Virus record (IMG/VR): IMGVR_UViG_3300006846_000014
Location: 1-64,000 of that record
Reading direction: 5' to 3' (one strand)
Source: a virus
Length of the DNA: 64,000 nt
Within the stretch, counting starts at the first letter, position 1, and every line of letters begins with the position of its first letter. The translations under genes and the position numbers were made by a program. Under the pieces are notes generated by a model. That model did no database searches and was not told the DNA's origin. It saw only the letters and a list, made by a program, of their open reading frames with translations. Positions 666-53,128 of this stretch are shown here, piece after piece.

Positions 666-1736
666 ATGGACCGTGAAGACGCCAAGGCACAGCTTTGGCA
701 ACAGGCGCTTGACCTTGTGCTAAAACACGGCACATATGAGCAGGCATCGAGAGCATCAGGCATCAGCAAGACAACGCTGTATGATCGCGCGAAGATGGGG
801 CGTAGCGCGGGGCTAATGCCCCATGCAGAGCAGGCCCCGGTTGGTGCTGTACTTACTCAGCCGCGCCTTCCAAGCGCGGCAATGAGCGACGAAGAGCTAC
901 TGGACGGCCTGGAAATCGCCTACCGGCGCACCCATCGCGAACACGCTGCAAGACGGTGGCATGAAATTGCCGTGAACAGCGACGCACCTATGGGGATTGT
1001 GTGGTTTGGTGATCCCCATATGGACGATGGTGGTTGCGATTGGCCGCAATTGCGCTATGACGTTGCAGTAACGGCCAAAACGCCGGGCATGGTGGGTGCC
1101 AATATCGGTGACAGCACCAATAATTGGCTTGGCAAGCTTTTGCACCTTTACGAGGAACAGCTTGTTACCCGCACCCAGGCCGCACAGCTTGTGGAGTGGC
1201 TGTTGCACCGTTCCGGGGTTGAGTGGCTGATGTGGTTGCTTGGAAACCACGACGCTTGGCGCGGTGGAAGTGAGCTGATGCGCGCGCAAGCGCGGAACAT
1301 CGTCCCGCTTCACGATTGGCAGGCCCAAATCAAGCTTACCTTTCCGTGCGGTTTGAAACTTCCCATATGGGCGGCGCACGACTTCAAGGGAAGCTCGGCG
1401 ATCAACCCGCTGCAAGGCCCCATGAAGATGGCAGAGCGCGCACAGGCGGCCCTGTACATCTGCGGCCATCGCCACAACTACGCCATGTTTCATAGCGAGC
1501 ACCCTTTCCAGGGCGGCCAGTTTTGGGCATGCCGCGCCAAGGGCTACAAGGCCATCGACAGTTACGCGGAAAAGGGGCAGTTCGGACACCAGATCACGGG
1601 CGCTTCCATCGTCTCCGTTATCGATCCCCTTGCACGCGGCGGCGCTGGCTACGTGCATTGCTTCCCTGATGTGGAAGAAGGGGCTGACTATCTGCTGTGG
1701 CGTCGCAAGCGGGCGGGGTTCTGCGATGAGACCTAA
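666..1736 (+). CDS. Helix-turn-helix/metallophosphoesterase fusion
   Basis: The 356-residue protein begins with a small HTH (about 20-45, AS-x3-GISKTTLYD) of the kind seen in phage terminase small subunits and Fis/Psq-type binders. A calcineurin-like phosphoesterase domain follows, with all metal motifs visible: DPH (116-118), GDS-TNN (148-153), GNHD (193-196), AHDF (237-240) and GHRH (267-270). The family hydrolyses phosphomono- or diesters using two metals. The HTH suggests it is brought to DNA, so a nuclease or end-processing role is possible (inference). Start ATG 666 comes directly before the HTH. The next gene overlaps by 11 bases. Confidence 0.75.
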   Translation: MDREDAKAQLWQQALDLVLKHGTYEQASRASGISKTTLYDRAKMGRSAGLMPHAEQAPVGAVLTQPRLPSAAMSDEELLDGLEIAYRRTHREHAARRWHEIAVNSDAPMGIVWFGDPHMDDGGCDWPQLRYDVAVTAKTPGMVGANIGDSTNNWLGKLLHLYEEQLVTRTQAAQLVEWLLHRSGVEWLMWLLGNHDAWRGGSELMRAQARNIVPLHDWQAQIKLTFPCGLKLPIWAAHDFKGSSAINPLQGPMKMAERAQAALYICGHRHNYAMFHSEHPFQGGQFWACRAKGYKAIDSYAEKGQFGHQITGASIVSVIDPLARGGAGYVHCFPDVEEGADYLLWRRKRAGFCDET

Positions 1737-1989
1737 GAAGAAATTCGTTCGGGCGGCGCTGGCCGCCCTGAAATTGGCGGCCCAATCTCGCGAGATATAC
1801 GGGCCGTTCAACAGTGCTCACGAAGGCTTCGGCGTTCTTATGGAAGAGTTCGAAGAGCTGAAAGAGCACGTTTGGACGAAGCAACGCAACCGCGATCTCG
1901 AAGCCATGCGCAAAGAGGCTATCGACGTTGCGGCAAGCGCTATACGCATAGCTGCCGAGCTGTGCACTGAAAAGAGAGGGCGGCGCTAA
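1726..1989 (+). CDS. MazG-like nucleotide pyrophosphohydrolase (short)
   Basis: 87-residue all-helical protein. The pattern HEGF-x3-MEEFEEL, then EAIDVAA about 30 residues later, matches the short MazG-like family, whose EExxE and ExxD acidic residues hold Mg2+ and cleave NTPs to NMP and PPi. It overlaps the upstream phosphoesterase by 11 bases and touches the ParB-like gene by one base, so the genes are probably translated together. It may clean the dNTP pool; a substrate cannot be read from the sequence. Confidence 0.6.
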   Translation: MRPKKKFVRAALAALKLAAQSREIYGPFNSAHEGFGVLMEEFEELKEHVWTKQRNRDLEAMRKEAIDVAASAIRIAAELCTEKRGRR

Positions 1990-2600
1990 TGGCGAAGCTG
2001 AAGAAGGGCCTTGAGGCCAAGGTATCAGAAATCGAAGTGCGGCCCTGGAATTGGTTCAAGCCGCATCCCGAAAACCCGCGCGAGCACGATGCGGCTTCAA
2101 TTCAGAAGCTGGCCGATTACATGAAGCGCGTGGGTTTCGTGGGCGCGCTTGTGGCGCGGCCCGATGGCACCATTCTGGCCGGTCATAAGCGTTGGCAGGC
2201 GTTTGGTTGCGTGGACAAGGCGGCAAGCATTCCGTGCGCCATCTTCGAGGGCACGGATGCGGAAGCCTTGGAGCTTATCCTGGCTGACAACCGTTTCGGC
2301 GAAGACAGCACGTGGAACGACGAGCTTCTGGCCGCCGCTGTTCAGAAGCTTATCGACCAAGATATGGACCCGGCCGGGGCCGGTTTCTCGGATGATGAGC
2401 TGCAAACCATCATTGGCGGTTGGAAGCCCACCGTTACGGCGGAAGAGCTGGCCGGAGACGTGGCAGAGCTGAAAGCGGTAATCAAGGTGCGTTGCCTGCC
2501 GCAGCACAAAGACACGGTGAAGAAGCACCTGGATAACGCCTTGCAGGCCATGCGAGACGGGGGAGACATCGATTTTGGAGACAGCCTCGAAATCGAATAG
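1989..2600 (+). CDS. ParB/Srx-type domain protein beside the DNA-modification genes
   Basis: 203 residues. The N-terminal half is a ParB-like domain: HPENPREH (26-33) and AGHKRW (64-69) are the box motifs, followed by ILADNR (92-97). Phage and plasmid ParB-like proteins include CTPases, nucleases and adaptors for DNA-modifying enzymes. The gene overlaps dpdA by 26 bases, so the two are probably coupled. The bacterial Dpd 7-deazaguanine system also needs a ParB-related partner (DpdB), so an accessory role in base exchange is a reasonable inference; partition is unlikely because no ParA is seen. Confidence 0.7.
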   Translation: MAKLKKGLEAKVSEIEVRPWNWFKPHPENPREHDAASIQKLADYMKRVGFVGALVARPDGTILAGHKRWQAFGCVDKAASIPCAIFEGTDAEALELILADNRFGEDSTWNDELLAAAVQKLIDQDMDPAGAGFSDDELQTIIGGWKPTVTAEELAGDVAELKAVIKVRCLPQHKDTVKKHLDNALQAMRDGGDIDFGDSLEIE

Positions 2601-3438
2601 AATTCCCATCCTGATATCCTACTCCTACCTTGGTTCAGACCTGCGCAAGCTGGTGAAGAGCAGGCGGGAGGATATCGAATTCATGTTGGACAGCGGGGCC
2701 TTTACCGCCTTCAAGATGGGGAAGGAGGTAACGCTTGACGGCTATTGCGGCTTCCTGGATACGTTGCGCATGGACGGCCTTATGCCGGATTGCTATTACA
2801 CGCTAGACGTGATCGGGCAACCGGAGCAGACCCTACGCAATTACGAAATCATGCTCTCGCGGGGCTTCAAGCCTATCCCCATCGCCACGCGGGGCGATAC
2901 GGAAGAAACCGTCAACGCCTACTATCAGACTTCTGATTACGTGGCTTTCGGCGGCCTTGCGTCCGCCAATCTGGCGGGCGCGCAATGGGCGGCCAAAATG
3001 ATTGAATGGTCGGCAGGGCGCAAGGCGCATTTGCTGGGCATGACACGTTGGCCCCTAATCAAGCTTCTGAAGCCGTACAGCGTGGACAGTAGCTCTTGGA
3101 AACAGGGCGGGCGCTTCGGTACGGTATCCGTCTATATGGGGCACGGCGTGATGGAGTTGCTTCACCCGCGCCAGCTTACCCGCGCCAAGCTTAACCGGCG
3201 CGTGGCCGAGCGCATCCGCAAGCTGGGATATGATCCCTATTCAATCTTTGCCCCAGACGCTGGCAAAGGTGTGTGTTCCACTTGGCAGAACATCACAACG
3301 GCCTCGTGGGTGGAATTTTCTTGTGAGTTACGCCGCGTTCTTGGTGTGAAACTGTTCTTTGCGATCACGACAAGCATCTATACGCGCTTGCTGATGCAGC
3401 ACTATGACGCGGGCCGATACCATGGAAAAGCCGTATGA
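2575..3438 (+). CDS. dpdA: DNA guanine transglycosylase DpdA (phage type)
   Basis: Phage DpdA belongs to the tRNA-guanine transglycosylase superfamily and swaps guanine in DNA for a 7-deazaguanine base. The 287-residue TIM-barrel protein shows LDSGAF (38-43) with the expected catalytic Asp39, a second Asp in YYTLDV (D78), FGGLAS (125-130) matching the TGT GGL loop, and HLLGMT (152-157). The start is TTG 2575 with GGGGGAG about 9 bases upstream, inside the end of the ParB-like gene. FolE, QueD and QueE follow in the same operon, which strongly supports the call. Which base it inserts is not fixed by sequence. Confidence 0.85.
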   Translation: METASKSNRIPILISYSYLGSDLRKLVKSRREDIEFMLDSGAFTAFKMGKEVTLDGYCGFLDTLRMDGLMPDCYYTLDVIGQPEQTLRNYEIMLSRGFKPIPIATRGDTEETVNAYYQTSDYVAFGGLASANLAGAQWAAKMIEWSAGRKAHLLGMTRWPLIKLLKPYSVDSSSWKQGGRFGTVSVYMGHGVMELLHPRQLTRAKLNRRVAERIRKLGYDPYSIFAPDAGKGVCSTWQNITTASWVEFSCELRRVLGVKLFFAITTSIYTRLLMQHYDAGRYHGKAV

Positions 3439-4108
3439 CGTTAGGCTGGTGATCGAAAAAGTTCGATCCCAGCTAAAGGCGAAGGGCGTTTCGATGCACG
3501 CCAATGCATCGCTGGCCGATTATATCGATGACTTCGAAATGGAGTGCATCGAGGAAGGGGTTAAGCTTGCGATGGAGGGCGTACTTGACGCCCTTCTGAT
3601 CGACAGGGAGAATGATCCCAACGCGAAGAACACTGCCGCGCGCGTGGCGAAGATGTACGTGCGCGAAGTGTTCAAGGGGCGCTATTTAAGGCCGCCTGAA
3701 GCCACTTCGTTCCCCAACGTGGTGCAGGGCTCCGATATGTTTGTAGCAGGCCCTTGGGGCTTTAATTCGGCTTGTAGCCACCATTTGGTTCCCATCATTG
3801 GGAAGGCATGGGTAGGCGTGCTCTCAGGGAACGCCCTGCTCGGTCTATCGAAGTTTGGGCGCATCACAGAACACATCATGTCCAGGCCGCAGATACAGGA
3901 GGAAGCCACGCAACAGCTTGTGGAAGCCCTGCACGCGGCCTTTGCGCCGCGTGGCGTTGGCGTGATCGTTCAGGCGCGGCATTTCTGTGCGTGCTGGCGT
4001 GGCGTGCGAGATGCGGGCACCGTGATGATTACCCAGGCCGCGCGCGGAACAATGAACCTACCCCACCAAATGGAGCGTATGTTGGGGCTGATGGAGCTTG
4101 CAAAGTGA
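3404..4108 (+). CDS. folE: GTP cyclohydrolase I
   Basis: Converts GTP to 7,8-dihydroneopterin triphosphate, the first step of 7-deazaguanine synthesis. Zinc ligands are in CSHHL (C124, H127) and HFCAC (C195), with GLSKFGRI and RPQIQEEATQQL in the usual places. The Glu usual in the CEHH motif is Ser here. There are two possible ATG starts, 3404 and 3422, neither with a clear ribosome site, so coupling to dpdA is likely. The stop overlaps the queD GTG as GTGA. Confidence 0.9.
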   Translation: MTRADTMEKPYDVRLVIEKVRSQLKAKGVSMHANASLADYIDDFEMECIEEGVKLAMEGVLDALLIDRENDPNAKNTAARVAKMYVREVFKGRYLRPPEATSFPNVVQGSDMFVAGPWGFNSACSHHLVPIIGKAWVGVLSGNALLGLSKFGRITEHIMSRPQIQEEATQQLVEALHAAFAPRGVGVIVQARHFCACWRGVRDAGTVMITQAARGTMNLPHQMERMLGLMELAK

Positions 4109-4569
4109 GCATCACAAACGGCGTTATCACGGCCACGCGCACGCACGAGATTTGCGCCGGTCATAGCGTTTGGGGCCATGAGGGGAAGTGCGCGCACCTT
4201 CACGGCCACAACTACAAATTCCACCTTGTGTGCGCGGCGCACACGCTTGACCACATTGGGCGTGTGCTGGACTTTTCTCAAATCAAGACGTTGCTGTGCG
4301 CATGGCTTGAGGAGAATTGGGACCACAAGTTTCTGTTATGGGAACAAGACCCGCGTTTGCGGGCTCTCATGGAAATCGACAGAACAGTGGTTGCCGTTCC
4401 TTTCAACCCTACAGCGGAGAACATGGCTAGGCATTTGGTCTGCTGCGTTGGCCCCATGCAGTTATTTGGCACGGGGGTGCAACTCGTTGAAACGATCATT
4501 GAAGAAACCGGCAAATGCCGCGCTTCATACCGGCTCCATGCTGGCGGTTACGTGGGCTCACTTCACTAG
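4105..4569 (+). CDS. queD: 6-carboxy-tetrahydropterin synthase QueD
   Basis: Makes 6-carboxy-5,6,7,8-tetrahydropterin from the FolE product. The 154-residue protein keeps the active-site set: H20 in CAGH, C29 (KCAHL, catalytic Cys), HGHNY zinc ligands H33/H35, the DH pair at 73-74, PTAENMA (102-108) and the C-terminal Glu in IIEETGKC. Start is GTG 4105, overlapping the folE stop. The C-terminus overlaps the phosphoribosyltransferase start by 32 bases. Confidence 0.88.
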   Translation: MSITNGVITATRTHEICAGHSVWGHEGKCAHLHGHNYKFHLVCAAHTLDHIGRVLDFSQIKTLLCAWLEENWDHKFLLWEQDPRLRALMEIDRTVVAVPFNPTAENMARHLVCCVGPMQLFGTGVQLVETIIEETGKCRASYRLHAGGYVGSLH

Positions 4570-4999
4570 GGGGGCTGAGGCCCTTATCCGTTTTTACGCG
4601 GACTATGTGAAATCGGGCTCCGTTAAAAGCGTGTACGGCATCCCGCGCGGCGGCCTGCCGATGGCGGTTGCCGTAAGCCATGGCCTTGGCATCCCGCTAA
4701 TCACGGATAGGGCCGAAGTTGACCAGCTTAACACGCTGGTTATAGACGATGTTATCGAAAGCGGCGAAACGATGGACACCTTTCCGGTTGTTCACTTCGC
4801 CGCGTGGTTTGATAAATCGGAGCATGTTCACGGCGGGACCGTGGCGTATATCATCGACCCGGAGACATGGCTTGTCTTTCCGTGGGAAAACAGGGTGGAG
4901 GCGGAACGTGACAGAGCAGCATATGCCCAAGGGCACAAGCCAAAGCGGCGGGCCAAGCGAGAGCAGCAAAACGCGCTTTGCGGAAGGCTTGCTCCTTAA
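4538..4999 (+). CDS. Purine-type phosphoribosyltransferase-like protein in the deazaguanine operon
   Basis: 153 residues with a type I PRTase fold signature: RGGLP (37-41), the PRPP-binding loop LVIDDVIESGET (67-78) and FPWE (114-117), which is typical of Gpt-like guanine/xanthine phosphoribosyltransferases. Such enzymes join a purine base to PRPP. Sitting between queD and queE, it may act on guanine or a 7-deazaguanine base (inference). ATG 4538 is the only reasonable in-frame start and lies inside queD; the 3' end overlaps queE by 92 bases. Confidence 0.75.
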   Translation: MLAVTWAHFTRGAEALIRFYADYVKSGSVKSVYGIPRGGLPMAVAVSHGLGIPLITDRAEVDQLNTLVIDDVIESGETMDTFPVVHFAAWFDKSEHVHGGTVAYIIDPETWLVFPWENRVEAERDRAAYAQGHKPKRRAKREQQNALCGRLAP

Positions 5000-5666
5000 C
5001 GAACACTTCTCAACGATGCAAGGGGAAGGCTCCCATACGGGGAAGCCTTCCACCTTCTTCCGGCTTCAAGGCTGTGCCGTAGGGTGCCCGTGGTGCGATA
5101 CGAAATACACCTGGAAGGTGAACGCGGCCAATCTGGTGCACTATGTGGCGCTTGCGAACAAAGCGCCGGGCTCCCCTGAATTCGCCATCGTGGAAGCCGC
5201 GTTCCTGGTGCGCCTAGCCAAGGAATACGGCAACAACCACGTGGTGTTCACGGGCGGCGAGCCGTGCGTTTACGACCTTTTCAAGGTTACAAACGATCTC
5301 GAAAGCTTGGGCTTTACAACCCAGATCGAAACCAGCGGCACGCACGAAATCAGCGCGGACCCCGGAACCTTCGTAACTCTCTCGCCCAAGGTGGATATGC
5401 CGGGCGGCCTTGTGGTGCTTGATGACGCGCTATTGCGCGCCGACGAAATCAAGATGCCGGTTGGAAAACCAGCGGATATCACAACGCTGCAAAAGCTTCT
5501 GGCGAGACGCCTTGAAGTGCGCAAAAGCGCCACGGCGTACCACGTGCCCGTTTATTTGCAGCCGCTTTCCATGTCGAAGAAGGCAACGGAGCTTTGCCTG
5601 GAAGCGGCGCGGGTGAACGATTGGCTTGTCTCGGTTCAGACGCACAAGGTTGCGGGCTTGCGCTAG
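4908..5666 (+). CDS. queE: 7-carboxy-7-deazaguanine synthase QueE (radical SAM)
   Basis: Radical-SAM enzyme that contracts the pterin ring to give 7-carboxy-7-deazaguanine (CDG). The cluster motif is CAVGCPWC (C56, C60, C63), preceded by FSTMQGEG-x3-GKPSTFFR, which is diagnostic of QueE. TGGEP (115-119) and IETSGT follow. The chosen start is GTG 4908 with GGTGGAGG about 7 bases upstream; ATG 4923 is the alternative. It is the last biosynthesis gene of the block; terS follows after 8 bases. No QueC gene is seen in the window. Confidence 0.88.
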   Translation: MTEQHMPKGTSQSGGPSESSKTRFAEGLLLNEHFSTMQGEGSHTGKPSTFFRLQGCAVGCPWCDTKYTWKVNAANLVHYVALANKAPGSPEFAIVEAAFLVRLAKEYGNNHVVFTGGEPCVYDLFKVTNDLESLGFTTQIETSGTHEISADPGTFVTLSPKVDMPGGLVVLDDALLRADEIKMPVGKPADITTLQKLLARRLEVRKSATAYHVPVYLQPLSMSKKATELCLEAARVNDWLVSVQTHKVAGLR

Positions 5667-5674
5667 GAGGATGA

Positions 5675-6325
5675 ATGGCCGAAGAACAGGCGGAAAGGGG
5701 TTATCTTTCGGCGTTTGAGGCCGCGAAGCTCCTTGATATCCCCGAGCGTGATGTAAAGCGCATCGGCAACCTTGGCTATTACGCTATGAAGCGGGGCCGG
5801 TATCACCTTCTTGAGCTGATGCAGGGATATATCAAGTTCCTGCAAGATGGCCGATACCGGCAATTCGAGCTTGGTGAGCTATGCGGCATGCCGTCAAGGC
5901 AGCTTGACGACTTGGCAAAGGGCGGCTTCATCGCGCCGGACAAAAACAAGCTGTACAGTCTTCAAGAAAGCATTCGCGGCATCATTGCTTGGGCGAAGGG
6001 CGAAAGGCGTCAGAACCTTGGCACGGAAACCCAAAAGAAGCTCCAAGCTATTCGCGCGAAAGAGATTGAGCAGCGCATGGCCGCGAAAGGCGGCCAGCTT
6101 GTGCCCGTGGAAGAAGCCGAGGCTTTCGTTGCCACGATGATGGGCGAAGTTGTATCGCGTCTGGCCGGTCTTCCCGCCATGATTGGAACAAGGGACAGGG
6201 ATGTCAGAAACCGCATTGAACGTGCCGTTGACGGCATCAGGCGCGAACTGGCCGCGCTCGCTTCGAAATATGGCGAGGCTTGCGAAGCTATCCGCGAAGA
6301 TACTAGAGCCAGTAGAGAGGAATAA
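5675..6325 (+). CDS. Terminase small subunit-like protein (Nu1 type)
   Basis: 216 residues, start ATG 5675 with AGGAGG directly upstream. The N-terminus carries two excisionase-like winged-helix segments (SAFEAAKLLDIPERDVKRI and FELGELCGMPSRQLDDLA) and the C-terminus is a long helical region, the plan of lambda Nu1-type small terminases. Its position just before the large terminase gene fits. It would recognise the packaging site and recruit TerL. It overlaps the terL frame by at least 56 bases. Confidence 0.65.
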   Translation: MAEEQAERGYLSAFEAAKLLDIPERDVKRIGNLGYYAMKRGRYHLLELMQGYIKFLQDGRYRQFELGELCGMPSRQLDDLAKGGFIAPDKNKLYSLQESIRGIIAWAKGERRQNLGTETQKKLQAIRAKEIEQRMAAKGGQLVPVEEAEAFVATMMGEVVSRLAGLPAMIGTRDRDVRNRIERAVDGIRRELAALASKYGEACEAIREDTRASREE

Positions 6326-8204
6326 GCCCGATATCTGGGCATATCAAAACCGCGTCTATCCAGAAACCAGCGGCAGGCCGGGCGCTCGCGATCCCGGCCT
6401 AACCCCGTACATCATCCCTTTCGAGCACGCGCTGGACAGCGGCGAATATAAGCGCTGCGTTCTCGCCATGGCCGCCCAAAGCGGCAAGACGGAAGCGCTG
6501 CTAGACGTTATGGGTGCGCGGCTTGATCAAAGGCCCGTGCCTATCCTTTACGCGGGGCCTACTGCGGAATTCGTCAAAACGCAGTTTGAGCCCCGGTTGG
6601 TGGAGCTGTTTGAGCAATCGGCCACGTTGCAAGCCAAGTTGCTAGGCGACCGTATGCAAAGCAAGACGCTTAAGCGCATTGCTGGCGTGCGCGTGCGCTT
6701 GGCGCATGGCGGCAGCTCCACAGCCCTTAAGTCTGATCCGGCTGGCTTGGCCGTGGTGGACGAATATGACGAAATGCTGCACAACATTCGCGGCCAGGGC
6801 GATCCCCTTGGCCTTGTGGAAGCGCGTGGCGAAACATACGATGACTTCTCGGTTGGCGTGGTTTCCACGCCCTCCCTTGGCTTGGTGGAAACGGAGCTTG
6901 ACCCCAACAGCGGCTTGCGCTTCTGGAAGTATCGGGAGCCCGATGAAATCAAAAGCGGCATCTGGAAGCTTTGGCAGGAGGGCACGCGGCATCATTGGTG
7001 CTGGCCGTGTCCGCACTGCGGAGACTTCTTTGTGCCGCGCGCCGACCTGCTGAAATGGCCGAAGCACGAGAGCCCCGCGCAGGTGCTGCATTCCGCGTAT
7101 CTGGAATGCCCCGGATGCGGTGGGGTGATCGAAGAGCACCATAAGCAGGAGATGAACGAGCGCGGCGTTTATGTGGCACCGGGCCAAACCGTAAATAAGG
7201 CCGGTACAGTGGCGGGAAGCCATCCCGCCACTACCACCATTAGCTTTTGGGTTTCGGGGCTGTGTAGTCCGTTTAGAACGTTTGGGGAGCGTGCTGCGCG
7301 CCTACTTGGTGAAATGGCCACAGGCGATGCAAACAAAATCCAAACGGTCATCAATTCCGCTTTCGGCGAATGCTTCTCCCATCTGGAAGTTGAAAACGCT
7401 GTCACGTGGAAGGAAGTAGCCGGGCGCAAGCTTCCGTACCCCATGGGCAACGTGCCTTTGGGCGCGGTGATCCTTACGGCAGGCGTGGACGTGCAGCAAA
7501 AGCGGCTTGTCTACGTTATCCGTGGTTGGGGTTCTCGCGGCACATCCTGGCTTGTGGACGCCAATGAGATTTGGGGTCCAACGCATCACAATGACGTTTG
7601 GGAAGAGCTTTACAAGGTTCTTACGGCCGAGCGCGCGGGCATGCTCGTCTCAAAGGCGTTCATAGACGCGGGCTTCCGGCCAAACAAGAAATCAAGCGGC
7701 GACGCACATACCGTTTATGATTTCTGTTGGAAGAATTCATGGTTGTGCCGCGCTACACGCGGCCACCACGTGCGCATGAAGCCCCTTAGCATTGTGGAGC
7801 ATGGCATTGATGACGGCGGCCTAAGGCGGAAGATTGAGCTTGTTCACGTGGACAGCGATTTCTTCAAGCAATGGACGCATAGCGCAATCCGCCTTCCGAT
7901 GGATAAGCCGGGCGCGTTCCTGCTACCCAGCAACGCCACGGAAGATTATTGCCGTCAAGTTGCGGCGGAAAACCGCATCATAGACCCCGATACGGGTAAG
8001 CCGGAGTGGATTGTGCGCTCATCCGAGAACCATTATCTGGACGCCGAAGCCCTTGCGCGTGCTGCCGCGTGGCTTCTGAATTGCCATCTGATCCCGGAAG
8101 GCGTTGAAAGAAGCGGCGGCGTTACCGAAGAAGACAGCCATAGCGGCAAAAGCGTTGGCGAAGGCTTACGCAAGCGCATGGCACAGGCGGCCAGAAAGCT
8201 TTAG
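6270..8204 (+). CDS. Terminase large subunit, lambda GpA family
   Basis: ATP-driven packaging motor and nuclease. From ATG 6270 it is 644 residues: Walker A AAQSGKTE (68-75), Walker B VVDEYDE (162-168), a Cys-rich zinc-ribbon-like segment (CPHC and CPGC, roughly 245-290), then the nuclease half with ILTAGVDVQ. The family is usually 600-700 residues. The start is uncertain: ATG 6201 would add 23 residues but overlap terS by 125 bases. Confidence 0.92.
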   Translation: MARLAKLSAKILEPVERNKPDIWAYQNRVYPETSGRPGARDPGLTPYIIPFEHALDSGEYKRCVLAMAAQSGKTEALLDVMGARLDQRPVPILYAGPTAEFVKTQFEPRLVELFEQSATLQAKLLGDRMQSKTLKRIAGVRVRLAHGGSSTALKSDPAGLAVVDEYDEMLHNIRGQGDPLGLVEARGETYDDFSVGVVSTPSLGLVETELDPNSGLRFWKYREPDEIKSGIWKLWQEGTRHHWCWPCPHCGDFFVPRADLLKWPKHESPAQVLHSAYLECPGCGGVIEEHHKQEMNERGVYVAPGQTVNKAGTVAGSHPATTTISFWVSGLCSPFRTFGERAARLLGEMATGDANKIQTVINSAFGECFSHLEVENAVTWKEVAGRKLPYPMGNVPLGAVILTAGVDVQQKRLVYVIRGWGSRGTSWLVDANEIWGPTHHNDVWEELYKVLTAERAGMLVSKAFIDAGFRPNKKSSGDAHTVYDFCWKNSWLCRATRGHHVRMKPLSIVEHGIDDGGLRRKIELVHVDSDFFKQWTHSAIRLPMDKPGAFLLPSNATEDYCRQVAAENRIIDPDTGKPEWIVRSSENHYLDAEALARAAAWLLNCHLIPEGVERSGGVTEEDSHSGKSVGEGLRKRMAQAARKL

Positions 8205-29680: not shown

Positions 29681-29912
29681 ACAGCATACGGTTTCATCGG
29701 AAGGCGTAACCCTGGATAGCATCATATGGCAAAGGTTCCATGAACCCAAGGACGGGCTTCTGGAATATATGCTTGAGATGCCGGAGAACTATCTTCTGGA
29801 ACATCAGGAAACAGAGCTTGCGGTTGGAACCGTAGTGCATCTGCCAATCTTCGATGATGAGGATAGGTACGAAGAAAAGCCAATCGATCTTTTCTCGGTT
29901 CTTTCCCAATGA
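29661..29912 (+). CDS. Tail protein X-like (LysM-type, P2 gpX)
   Basis: 83 residues. The pattern GVTLDSIIWQRFH...ENYLLEHQETELAVGTVVHLP resembles gpX, a short LysM-like fold: GDTLD-x-I-x-W and a closing GT-x-V/I-x-LP. It binds the baseplate hub. It overlaps the next gene as ATGA. Confidence 0.7.
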   Translation: MAVIHIEQHTVSSEGVTLDSIIWQRFHEPKDGLLEYMLEMPENYLLEHQETELAVGTVVHLPIFDDEDRYEEKPIDLFSVLSQ

Positions 29913-30709
29913 CACGCAAGTGCCCGTTCCTTAAGCGCGGCAACAACAAGTGCAGAACCTGCTTAAGGGGAGAGGCCGTTGAACGGCCTTCCCCCAACCT
30001 ACCCACCTCCCCCTTTCTCGGTTGGGCTAACCCTCGCCAGAAGTGCGGCAACGCCGCGCCTTGGTACTGCCGCACGAATAACCGGCCGCCGCAGGTTGAT
30101 CCCCAACCTTTCCTTATCGCAGATGTGCTTCGCGCCGTTGGCCTTTACTACGGCGTGGATGAAAGCGTGATCACTTCCCCCGTGCAACAACGTTGCGTGG
30201 TGCGCGTGCGTCAACTGGTGTGGCACCTGTGCCGCGATCTTACCCCGTGTAGTCTAAGCCAGATCGCGCGCCATACCGGCGCATGGACAAACCAAACCGT
30301 TTGCCAGGGCATCAAGTACATCACCCACCTTGTGGCCACGGAACCGGAATGGCGGCGCGCCGCAAACACAATAGCCGGGGCCGTTCGCGCGTATTGGGCG
30401 AAGCTTCCTCCGTTGAAAACACGTGCCCAGGCGCGGCAGGAAGCCGGGCTTTGCGTGATCGAGAAGGCCGTTGCACCCGGCCCGCGATCAAACAGGCCAT
30501 GGCCCGATGAAAGGGAAGCCACCTTGCGCCGGATTGCTGCGGCGGGCGGCTCTCTTCAAGATATCGCGGATGCGCTCAACATCTCGCGAAGTGCGGCGGG
30601 CGGCAAATGCCGACGCCTTGGAATTCGTCTCATCAATCGGCCGCGTGTAAGGACGCCGTTTTATTATGCCAATCTGCTATTGCCCACCCCAACGCATGGG
30701 GACGTGTAA
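29909..30709 (+). CDS. DnaA-domain-IV-like/GcrA-like fusion protein
   Basis: 266 residues. Residues ~68-162 resemble the DnaA C-terminal DNA-binding domain (VRVRQLVWHLCRDLTPCSLSQIARHTG). Residues ~196-240 (WPDEREATLRRIAAAGGSLQ and the following HTH, then GKCRRLGI) match the GcrA N-terminal HTH pattern of W-x-(D/E)ER-x2-L...SAAGGK-x-RLG. The N-terminus has five Cys (5, 15, 18, 46, 54), possibly zinc-binding. I know of no described family with this order. It is embedded in the tail operon between X and D genes, so it should be made late. Confidence 0.6.
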   Translation: MTRKCPFLKRGNNKCRTCLRGEAVERPSPNLPTSPFLGWANPRQKCGNAAPWYCRTNNRPPQVDPQPFLIADVLRAVGLYYGVDESVITSPVQQRCVVRVRQLVWHLCRDLTPCSLSQIARHTGAWTNQTVCQGIKYITHLVATEPEWRRAANTIAGAVRAYWAKLPPLKTRAQARQEAGLCVIEKAVAPGPRSNRPWPDEREATLRRIAAAGGSLQDIADALNISRSAAGGKCRRLGIRLINRPRVRTPFYYANLLLPTPTHGDV

Positions 30710-43377: not shown

Positions 43378-44610
43378 TTAATCTTTTCCTGTCCAGGCCG
43401 CGCTATCGTGCTCGGCAGGCTTGCGCGTTAGCCCCGCGTATGATCCGCGCGGGGTATGAAGCATTTGAATGGCAAGGTCGTGAATTTCTTCCGGGGTGCT
43501 CTCATATTTGGAGCGGCCATCACTTGAGAAGTAGACCGGGTATTGCGCATTCCTTTCAAGCCGAGCAAGCCATTCTTCCCTTGGGATATTCGGCGATATT
43601 CTGAGAACATCTTTAGCCAAATCTGCCGCTCTCTCTATAACTTCTTCGAAGAGTTGTCCCTTAACAGAGGTTCTAACCTTCTCGTAAAAGCAGCGCTCAA
43701 GAACATGCTTCTCCAAAAGTGGAGATGGGGTAAGCAACCGCGTTCCATTATCAAGCGATGGCACCGGCTGTGTAAGAAGGTAGCCGTATTTAGCGGCCTC
43801 GGCTGCATATAATCCGCCATCTGGGAAGGCCGAATTTTCAGGAAGTAGGCCGTGCGCCGCAAGCTGGCCGTTGGCCGCGCCAGCGCGCCAAACCATCAGG
43901 CTTGTTTCGATCAACGCCGCACCGGGGCAATGCGGATGCCGCAACCGGCCAAGTTTAAAGCAGTCTTCTATGTGGTCTGGCGTTGGCCACGGCCACGGCC
44001 CTTTGTTAATGGCGCTGCGGCCATCTTCCAGGGCAGTTTCGCGGGTATGTTGCGGTGGGTTCATCTTCATGCCGAAAGCCCCGGCATATTCGTGAATTGG
44101 CAGGCTTGTGTCCTGATCAATTGGGAATTCTCGCGCGGCCAATTCCCCATAGGTGCCCTGCGAAAGATCGCCTTCGTCCACAGGATCATTCGCCATCGCT
44201 TCCATGATCGCTGCGGCACGATCAAGGTTCTGATCACGGATGCGCGCGGCCACCTTGTTATACTGCCCCGTGATATCGGGCCGCGTATCGTCCATGGTTT
44301 CCAGTTCCATGGCGTCCATGATGATCGCACAGCACGCCATGATGTGGCCAAGGTGGTGCGCCTTGCTGTCATCGGCGCGGTCCTGTCCATCCATGAAGGC
44401 AAGGTAATGGCGCATGAGAGCATCCGTGTAGATGTTCATGCGAAGCCGCTGCTCTCGCCAATTGAACGGGCCGTATCCTTCCCCACCGTCTGCCCGCTTG
44501 GCGTGGTAGGCCCCGAAGTGCAGCGCCGCTCCCATTTCGAGAAGGGCAACGGGCGGGATGCAATGGGTGGATGCCTTGCTTTGCCCAACAATATCCTTGG
44601 GGTTAGTCAT
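43378..44610 (-). CDS. dATP/dGTP diphosphohydrolase-type domain (DUF5664) with long C-terminal extension
   Basis: 410 residues. The first ~115 match the dATP/dGTP diphosphohydrolase N-terminal family: NPKDIVGQSKASTHCIPPVA, YGPFNWREQRLRMNIYTDA, and HHLGHIMACCAIIMDAME with MazG-type acidic residues. Family members usually end near 110-150 residues; the rest here (about 250) matches nothing I know. It could hydrolyse dNTPs. Confidence 0.55.
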   Translation of the reverse strand: MTNPKDIVGQSKASTHCIPPVALLEMGAALHFGAYHAKRADGGEGYGPFNWREQRLRMNIYTDALMRHYLAFMDGQDRADDSKAHHLGHIMACCAIIMDAMELETMDDTRPDITGQYNKVAARIRDQNLDRAAAIMEAMANDPVDEGDLSQGTYGELAAREFPIDQDTSLPIHEYAGAFGMKMNPPQHTRETALEDGRSAINKGPWPWPTPDHIEDCFKLGRLRHPHCPGAALIETSLMVWRAGAANGQLAAHGLLPENSAFPDGGLYAAEAAKYGYLLTQPVPSLDNGTRLLTPSPLLEKHVLERCFYEKVRTSVKGQLFEEVIERAADLAKDVLRISPNIPREEWLARLERNAQYPVYFSSDGRSKYESTPEEIHDLAIQMLHTPRGSYAGLTRKPAEHDSAAWTGKD

Positions 44611-52122: not shown

Positions 52123-52595
52123 AGCGGTACGCGCAACGCCTTAGCAACCCGAAACAGCGGCCCCGGCTTGGCGATAAGATCGAAGCCATACAGGACCGCA
52201 CCGTGCTCCTTGCGAAGGAAAAGTGGACAGCCAACGACGTGCTAACCCGGCTTATCCGCGCAACGGTGATAGTTGACCGGCTAGGCGGGGCCATGAATGT
52301 GGAGCTTCTGGAAATCCTTGCAGGCCGTATCTTTGATCACAACGGAATTGTTTTCCCGCACCACATCGATAAGGCGGGCGTTGCGATATCATGGCCTATG
52401 GAGCATGTGGGGTGCATCATACAGCGCGAGCACCTTCTGCTCTATCTGCAATGCCGCGCACGGGCGCAAAGCGTTGAGAAGATGTGCAGGGAAAAGCTGA
52501 AGGTCTCCAAGGATACAAACGAGCGCTATCGCAAGCGTGCGCTTCATGCCATCGCGGCGGCATTGAACGAAAGAGAGGTTCCGCTAGAGCTGTAA
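52119..52595 (+). CDS. Protein resembling DUF6362
   Basis: 158 residues. KWTANDVLTRLIRA near residue 35 and the C-terminal LKVSKDTNERYRKRALHAI fit DUF6362-type phage proteins with a sigma-like HTH end. Possible transcription role. The overlap with primase-helicase is 4 bases and the next start overlaps as TAATG. Confidence 0.45.
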   Translation: MKRYAQRLSNPKQRPRLGDKIEAIQDRTVLLAKEKWTANDVLTRLIRATVIVDRLGGAMNVELLEILAGRIFDHNGIVFPHHIDKAGVAISWPMEHVGCIIQREHLLLYLQCRARAQSVEKMCREKLKVSKDTNERYRKRALHAIAAALNEREVPLEL

Positions 52596-53128
52596 TGTGG
52601 GACACAAAGTCACCAACCGGGCGCACATACTTTGAAGTAGCCAAGGCCATGCGGATGCGGCATCACGAATTTGGAGAAATCCGCGAAGCTCTTCTTGCCC
52701 TTGGCATGTGCGTTTCCAAGAATGCAATAATCGGGAAGATAGACCGCGCCATCAAGCGCGGCTCTATCCCTTCAAACGTTAGGGTACACAAGAAAGACAG
52801 GCAAGACAGGGCGAAGGAAGCGGCGCGGCCGGTTGATCATCCAATCGTTGATGTGATGCGCTATATGGACGTGAAGCATCCAACGCTTTTCAATATCTCG
52901 GAAGGCCAATGCAGCTATCTGGGATGTGATATCGGAATGGTTGGCTTCCTGTGCTGCGGAGCCCCTACGTTACCAGGGCGGTCATTCTGCGAAGCGCATC
53001 ACAGGCTTACACGCTCTCCCACAAGGCCGCTTAACATTGATGCTCTTATAGCCTGCTACTGCGGTGGGGTTGCGGCGCGGGGGAAAACCAAGCAATATAA
53101 TTGGCGTAGGAAGACGAAAAAATCCTAG
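52595..53128 (+). CDS. GcrA-family transcription regulator
   Basis: 177 residues. In alphaproteobacteria GcrA binds methylated GANTC sites and sigma70-RNA polymerase to set S-phase genes. N-terminal HTH (VSKNAIIGKIDR, 40-51) and the Cys-rich C-terminal motif (CSYLGCDIG then CCGAPTLPGRSFCEAHH, 106-136) are both seen. The first ~25 residues lack the usual W-T-E/D-ER start. It may redirect host RNA polymerase. Confidence 0.7.
   Translation: MWDTKSPTGRTYFEVAKAMRMRHHEFGEIREALLALGMCVSKNAIIGKIDRAIKRGSIPSNVRVHKKDRQDRAKEAARPVDHPIVDVMRYMDVKHPTLFNISEGQCSYLGCDIGMVGFLCCGAPTLPGRSFCEAHHRLTRSPTRPLNIDALIACYCGGVAARGKTKQYNWRRKTKKS

Follow-up and report, generated by a model that had tools for sequence, protein, structure and literature searches.

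The virus record IMGVR_UViG_3300006846_000014 encodes, directly ahead of its terminase genes, a six-gene 7-deazaguanine DNA-modification cassette that carries neither QueC nor any known substitute for it. We estimate at about one in two the probability that the pathway encoded by this cassette ends at 7-carboxy-7-deazaguanine (CDG) and that the DNA-guanine transglycosylase DpdA puts CDG itself into the phage DNA. An earlier note, made from the sequence alone, had allowed for CDG, a CDG derivative or the use of host QueC; CDG itself is favoured here because the slot that QueC or its substitutes fill in related cassettes is empty, because no DpdL-like or methyltransferase substitute occurs in the record and because the cellular genomes with the nearest terminases yielded no full-length QueC. 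The stretch analysed, hereafter the window, comprises bases 1–64,000 of the 65,930-bp record.

An overlapping operon with intact active sites

The cassette (1989–5666, plus strand) consists of six genes with overlapping ends that form one operon, as the earlier note had proposed, and both Pfam and PHROGs back the individual assignments. In order, the genes encode a ParB-like protein (1989–2600; phrog_620, 2.6e-25), DpdA (2575–3438, TTG start; phrog_887, queuine tRNA-ribosyltransferase, 2.1e-32), the GTP cyclohydrolase I FolE (3404–4108; PF01227, 6.4e-38), the 6-carboxy-tetrahydropterin synthase QueD (4105–4569, GTG start; PF01242, 4e-24; phrog_2389, 2.8e-49), a xanthine/guanine-type phosphoribosyltransferase (PRT; 4538–4999; phrog_8995, 3.6e-13) and the radical S-adenosylmethionine (SAM) enzyme QueE, a CDG synthase (4923–5666; phrog_2076, 8.4e-39). 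These coordinates include revised start codons for DpdA (2575), QueD (4105), the PRT (4538) and QueE (4923, or alternatively 4908).

FolE matches solved GTP cyclohydrolases I (PDB 4du6, 2e-26), and QueE matches the QueE structure 6nhl along its length (7e-57) and retains the CxxxCxxC motif. QueD, for which matches to QueD structures in the PDB were also obtained, keeps its zinc-binding and catalytic residues H20, C29, H33, H35, D73-H74 and E134; the active sites of FolE, QueD and QueE are intact, as had been noted earlier for QueD and QueE. A model of DpdA, computed from the window protein and 43 relatives, has a predicted local distance difference test (pLDDT) score of 92.5 and aligns with tRNA-guanine transglycosylase (TGT) with a Z score of 15.1 over 239 residues (VIA-align). 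A PDB sequence search with a DpdA profile gave no match, and a plain Foldseek comparison of the model likewise returned no significant TGT among PDB structures. DpdA also keeps the aspartate motifs LDSGAF and VDSSSW together with the GGL loop.

The route from FolE through QueD and QueE to CDG is an established pathway (PMC6884629, PMC13329287). In the window virus, FolE would convert GTP to dihydroneopterin triphosphate, QueD would make 6-carboxy-tetrahydropterin (CPH4) and QueE would make CDG, which, without QueC or a substitute, would be the base on offer. With the ParB-like protein as its guide or loader, DpdA would then exchange guanine in DNA for CDG to give 2'-deoxy-7-carboxy-7-deazaguanosine (dCDG), while the PRT would turn the displaced guanine into GMP and so feed the pathway. 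Phage DNA modified in this way would resist host restriction.

QueC and its known substitutes are absent from the record

The earlier note had seen no QueC in the window and had proposed a search of the whole genome. Run over the full 65,930-bp record, a PF06508 search, which also covers Gat-QueC and was positive in 12 of 14 control genomes, found neither, and a six-frame search of the record with a phage QueC profile of our own gave no significant match. The DpdL-like QueD-fold paralogue phrog_17812, described below, was likewise not found in the record, although four positive records matched as controls, and our own DpdL-like profile gave no match there. Overall, six-frame searches of the record gave no match to the slot families known from relatives. 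QueF and ArcS did not appear among the Pfam and PHROGs scans made of the window open reading frames (ORFs), which covered part of those frames.

The record starts and finishes with the same 8 bp, and contig L005 (L numbers denote loci and records of the comparison) spans the record junction with 18 of 19 bases matching. Since the record is probably near complete, as these shared ends and the reading of L005 across the junction indicate, the phage genome probably does lack QueC; the molecule is probably circular, or else circularly permuted. We rejected truncation as an explanation for the missing QueC, as the rest of the record lacks QueC and the ends join. L005 itself is 100% identical to the window virus across 8,278 bp and was therefore discarded as an independent copy of the cassette; it is the same virus.

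An exchangeable slot between DpdA and FolE

Scans with QueE and DpdA returned more than 200 loci, which, after identical DpdAs were dropped, gave 109 distinct cassettes with DpdA, FolE and QueE. Because they depend on our own profiles and include partial contigs, the slot counts that follow should be taken as approximate. The conserved order is ParB-DpdA-[slot]-FolE-QueD-QueE, the extra gene lying between DpdA and FolE in most cassettes. Either QueC or one of three substitute families occurs in 105 of the 109 cassettes: QueC in 85, Gat-QueC in 4, a DpdL-like QueD paralogue in 12 and a methyltransferase-like protein in 4, with none of these in the remaining 4. In the window, DpdA and FolE overlap by 35 bases, so the QueC slot has no room for a gene.

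The QueD-like slot paralogue corresponds to phrog_17812, annotated as of unknown function, and within the set it occurs in QueC-less cassettes only. It is encoded at L006:4388-4735, at 12 other loci, and also in named phages, among them Acidovorax phage ACP17 (85832–86215). Its model (pLDDT 93.7) matches E. coli QueD, but the protein keeps the three histidines and has lost the QueD catalytic cysteine. It is a candidate CDG decarboxylase and might correspond to DpdL, which Cui et al. 2023 reportedly described as having this activity.

The methyltransferase-like slot protein (195 residues) matches Methyltransf_23 weakly (1.7e-5, under the Pfam cut-off). It is found in L090 (1533–2111), L092, L094 (1566–2144), L101 (5369–5950), L108 (3750–4352), L181 (~1490–2111) and L185 (6804–7421), three of the cassettes that carry it being partial and additional to the four counted. 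No QueC was found in records L090, L092, L094, L101 and L108, and the state changed about three times on the DpdA tree, corresponding to about three separate lineages. The protein may make a CDG methyl ester, a compound of which we know no report as a DNA base. A further small slot family is represented by L031:1666-2061 and gp4 of Mycobacterium phage Bipper (L230:2047-2472), which are 35% identical (4e-25).

The slot is empty in the window and in L095/L096, with DpdA and FolE overlapping in both. L095 and L096 are one virus (99.9% identity over 11.5 kb), unrelated to the window virus, and their records (25 and 50 kb) contain neither QueC nor phrog_17812; their DpdA is sister to the methyltransferase-slot DpdAs, which are themselves without QueC. 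Another cassette lacking QueC, L210, has a Dam-like methylase after DpdA, in a record that is an 11-kb fragment. The empty-slot state requires three separate changes on the DpdA tree.

The ParB-like protein and the phosphoribosyltransferase

A ParB gene lies directly 5' of DpdA in 91 of the 109 cassettes, and in one locus ParB-like and DpdA domains are fused in a single frame (L119:6845-8233). Because of this near-constant linkage, the fusion and the place of ParB-like genes beside a DNA methylase in Microcystis phage Mae-JY30, the ParB-like protein is probably a DNA-loading or targeting partner of DpdA.

The PRT family profile matches the purine PRT 1vdm (2e-19) and E. coli xanthine/guanine phosphoribosyltransferase (XGPRT; 3e-6), and alignment shows that the phosphoribosyl pyrophosphate (PRPP) loop DD..(T/S)G.T and the C-terminal W..(F)PW(E/D) motif are kept; by these sequence criteria the protein is a member of the xanthine/guanine phosphoribosyltransferase family. 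It occurs in 42 of the 109 cassettes and in nine forms an XGPRT-type domain at the FolE N terminus (L002, L113, L136, L137, L145, L146, L220, L222 and L226). Its presence in 36 of the 85 QueC cassettes led us to reject it as a QueC substitute. Since each DpdA turnover releases one guanine, recycling of guanine to GMP is a natural role for the PRT, which probably recycles the guanine displaced by DpdA, including where it is fused to FolE. To our knowledge, such a step has not been described.

The host

The terminase genes begin 8 bases after the end of QueE, and their relatives served to place the phage and its host (small subunit, 5675–6325; large subunit, TerL, 6270–8204; both plus strand). 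The nearest cellular terminases are in three Alphaproteobacteria genomes (43–52% identity), the other class searched giving one at 32%, and a prophage contig of one of those three genomes shares the gene order of the window all the way from terminase to capsid. The window also encodes two GcrA-domain proteins (29909–30709 and 52484–53128), one of which is fused to a DnaA C-terminal domain; GcrA is an alphaproteobacterial cell-cycle regulator family. On the strength of these two proteins and the head-gene match to the prophage, the host is probably an alphaproteobacterium. The GcrA-domain proteins further suggest that alphaproteobacterial cell-cycle control in the host is a target of the phage.

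Full-length QueC was not found in the three nearest-terminase genomes, which gave weak partial matches only, and strong QueC was detected in just 148 of the 385 Alphaproteobacteria genomes sampled, many of which are possibly incomplete. It would thus be unsafe to presume a QueC in the host, and a QueC-less host is plausible. The same three genomes carry Tgt with YhhQ beside it.

Which base is inserted

Some observations on DpdA and on the host speak against CDG as the inserted base. On the DpdA tree the window protein is sister to DpdA of the Gat-QueC phage L082 (support 96), among QueC-type DpdAs. It lacks the Asn-129 typical of most methyltransferase-slot DpdAs and of L095, so its pocket may still be one that suits preQ0 or a similar base. 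The pocket residues did not, however, settle the substrate: Asn-129 is found in six of seven methyltransferase-slot DpdA rows and in L095 but also in three QueC rows, and a paired test had too few independent pairs. At pocket position 104 the window has alanine, where 79 of 88 QueC-type rows have phenylalanine. In addition, the host is one that we infer, and 38% of the sampled class carry QueC. The sister relationship to the L082 DpdA means that a preQ0-like substrate from the host can still be entertained, and that part of the earlier note stands beside the CDG that we favour.

One rival account, which we consider unlikely but weightier than those that follow, is that host QueC, or import of preQ0 by host YhhQ, supplies preQ0 for DpdA, the phage FolE, QueD and QueE merely boosting CDG for the host QueC. 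The clustering of the window DpdA with QueC- and Gat-QueC-type DpdAs fits this account, as do the presence of QueC in a part of the class and of YhhQ in the three close-terminase genomes, and many DpdA-only phages are thought to draw on host precursors (PMC6884629). However, those same three genomes lack a full-length QueC, the three CDG-making genes would be useless if preQ0 were imported, and nearly all related cassettes carry their own QueC or a substitute.

An unrecognised phage enzyme encoded outside the cassette might instead tailor CDG by amidation, decarboxylation or methylation, before or after insertion. Several unrelated families occupy the slot in relatives, so that new ones may exist, and many ORFs in the window are without annotation. 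We nonetheless judge such an enzyme improbable, since the known slot families are missing from the record and the tailoring gene lies inside the cassette in most relatives. That the cassette no longer modifies DNA, because it is decaying after loss of Gat-QueC (a loss made likely by the Gat-QueC of the sister lineage) or because its role is in the tRNA queuosine or the folate metabolism of the host, is very hard to reconcile with six open, overlapping genes that keep their active-site motifs at only ~30–55% identity to relatives. Nor would a part in tRNA or folate supply give DpdA and ParB anything to do.

Neighbouring genes

An 87-aa protein is encoded just upstream of the cassette (1726–1989, plus strand), overlapping the ParB start by 1 base, and its gene is probably on the cassette transcript. 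A Pfam scan gave no match, and its sole match is phrog_25385, of unknown function (6e-5). Elsewhere in the window, a gene on the minus strand (43378–44610) encodes a protein with the PF18909 domain (dATP/dGTP diphosphohydrolase, N-terminal; 9e-20), which may be connected with nucleotide pools in phages that modify their DNA.

Discussion

The likely product of this cassette is not new, because dCDG in phage DNA is said to have been reported already: Cui et al. 2023 (NAR 51:9214) reportedly described phages with dCDG or dDG DNA, along with DpdL. Those phages are reported to do without QueC and to finish at CDG or at a product made from it, as we propose for the window virus. The window virus, however, has no copy of the DpdL-like QueD paralogue that ACP17 and 12 of the cassettes carry. 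What is new is the empty-slot architecture and its setting in a probable host class where QueC is frequently missing, together with the XGPRT-type component and the exchangeable slot with its methyltransferase variant.

Clusters for preQ0 or archaeosine DNA modification are known from Enterobacteria phage 9g, E. coli phage CAjan and Mycobacterium phage Rosebush (PMC6884629). Like the window, these combine DpdA, FolE, QueD and QueE, but they encode QueC or Gat-QueC, whereas the window has neither. The insertion of a 7-deazaguanine by DpdA and the protection from restriction that we predict for the window virus are features of those clusters too. Bipper is closer in content, being listed as without only QueC and as possibly CDG-bearing (PMC6884629). 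It shares with the window the ParB-like protein, DpdA, QueD, QueE, FolE and terminase and the lack of QueC, but has gp4, the homologue of the L031 slot protein, between DpdA and QueD, where the window slot is empty. FolE, QueD, QueE, DpdA and a PRT of the same family are also found in Stenotrophomonas phage vB_SM_ytsc_ply2008005c and in Pseudomonas PaMx25/NP1-type phages; in ply2008005c, unlike the window, the PRT is at the FolE N terminus and QueC is present.

Mae-JY30 is the closest named phage by terminase (TerL, 51%) and, like the window, has ParB-like genes and a DNA-modifying enzyme before its terminase. In the position of the window's 7-deazaguanine cassette, it encodes a DNA methylase along with two ParB-like proteins (L229:5001-7319). 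The site before the terminase thus seems to exchange DNA-modification genes.

Taken together, the cassettes suggest a modular base factory, a model that we offer tentatively. A core of ParB, DpdA, FolE, QueD and QueE would make and insert CDG, and one exchangeable gene would set the 7-substituent: QueC would give a cyano group and Gat-QueC an amide or amidine, a QueD-fold enzyme would remove the carboxyl group, a SAM methyltransferase might form a CDG methyl ester, and with no gene, as in this phage, the carboxylate would stay bare. An XGPRT-type PRT would recycle the displaced guanine. The slot pattern turns gene content into a testable prediction of the base of each phage. The window virus provides a defined, complete-looking genome for testing a 7-deazaguanine pathway in its simplest form, one that lacks QueC and probably operates in hosts of a class that is often QueC-less; its DNA probably bears bare 7-carboxy-7-deazaguanine, which would shield it from host enzymes.

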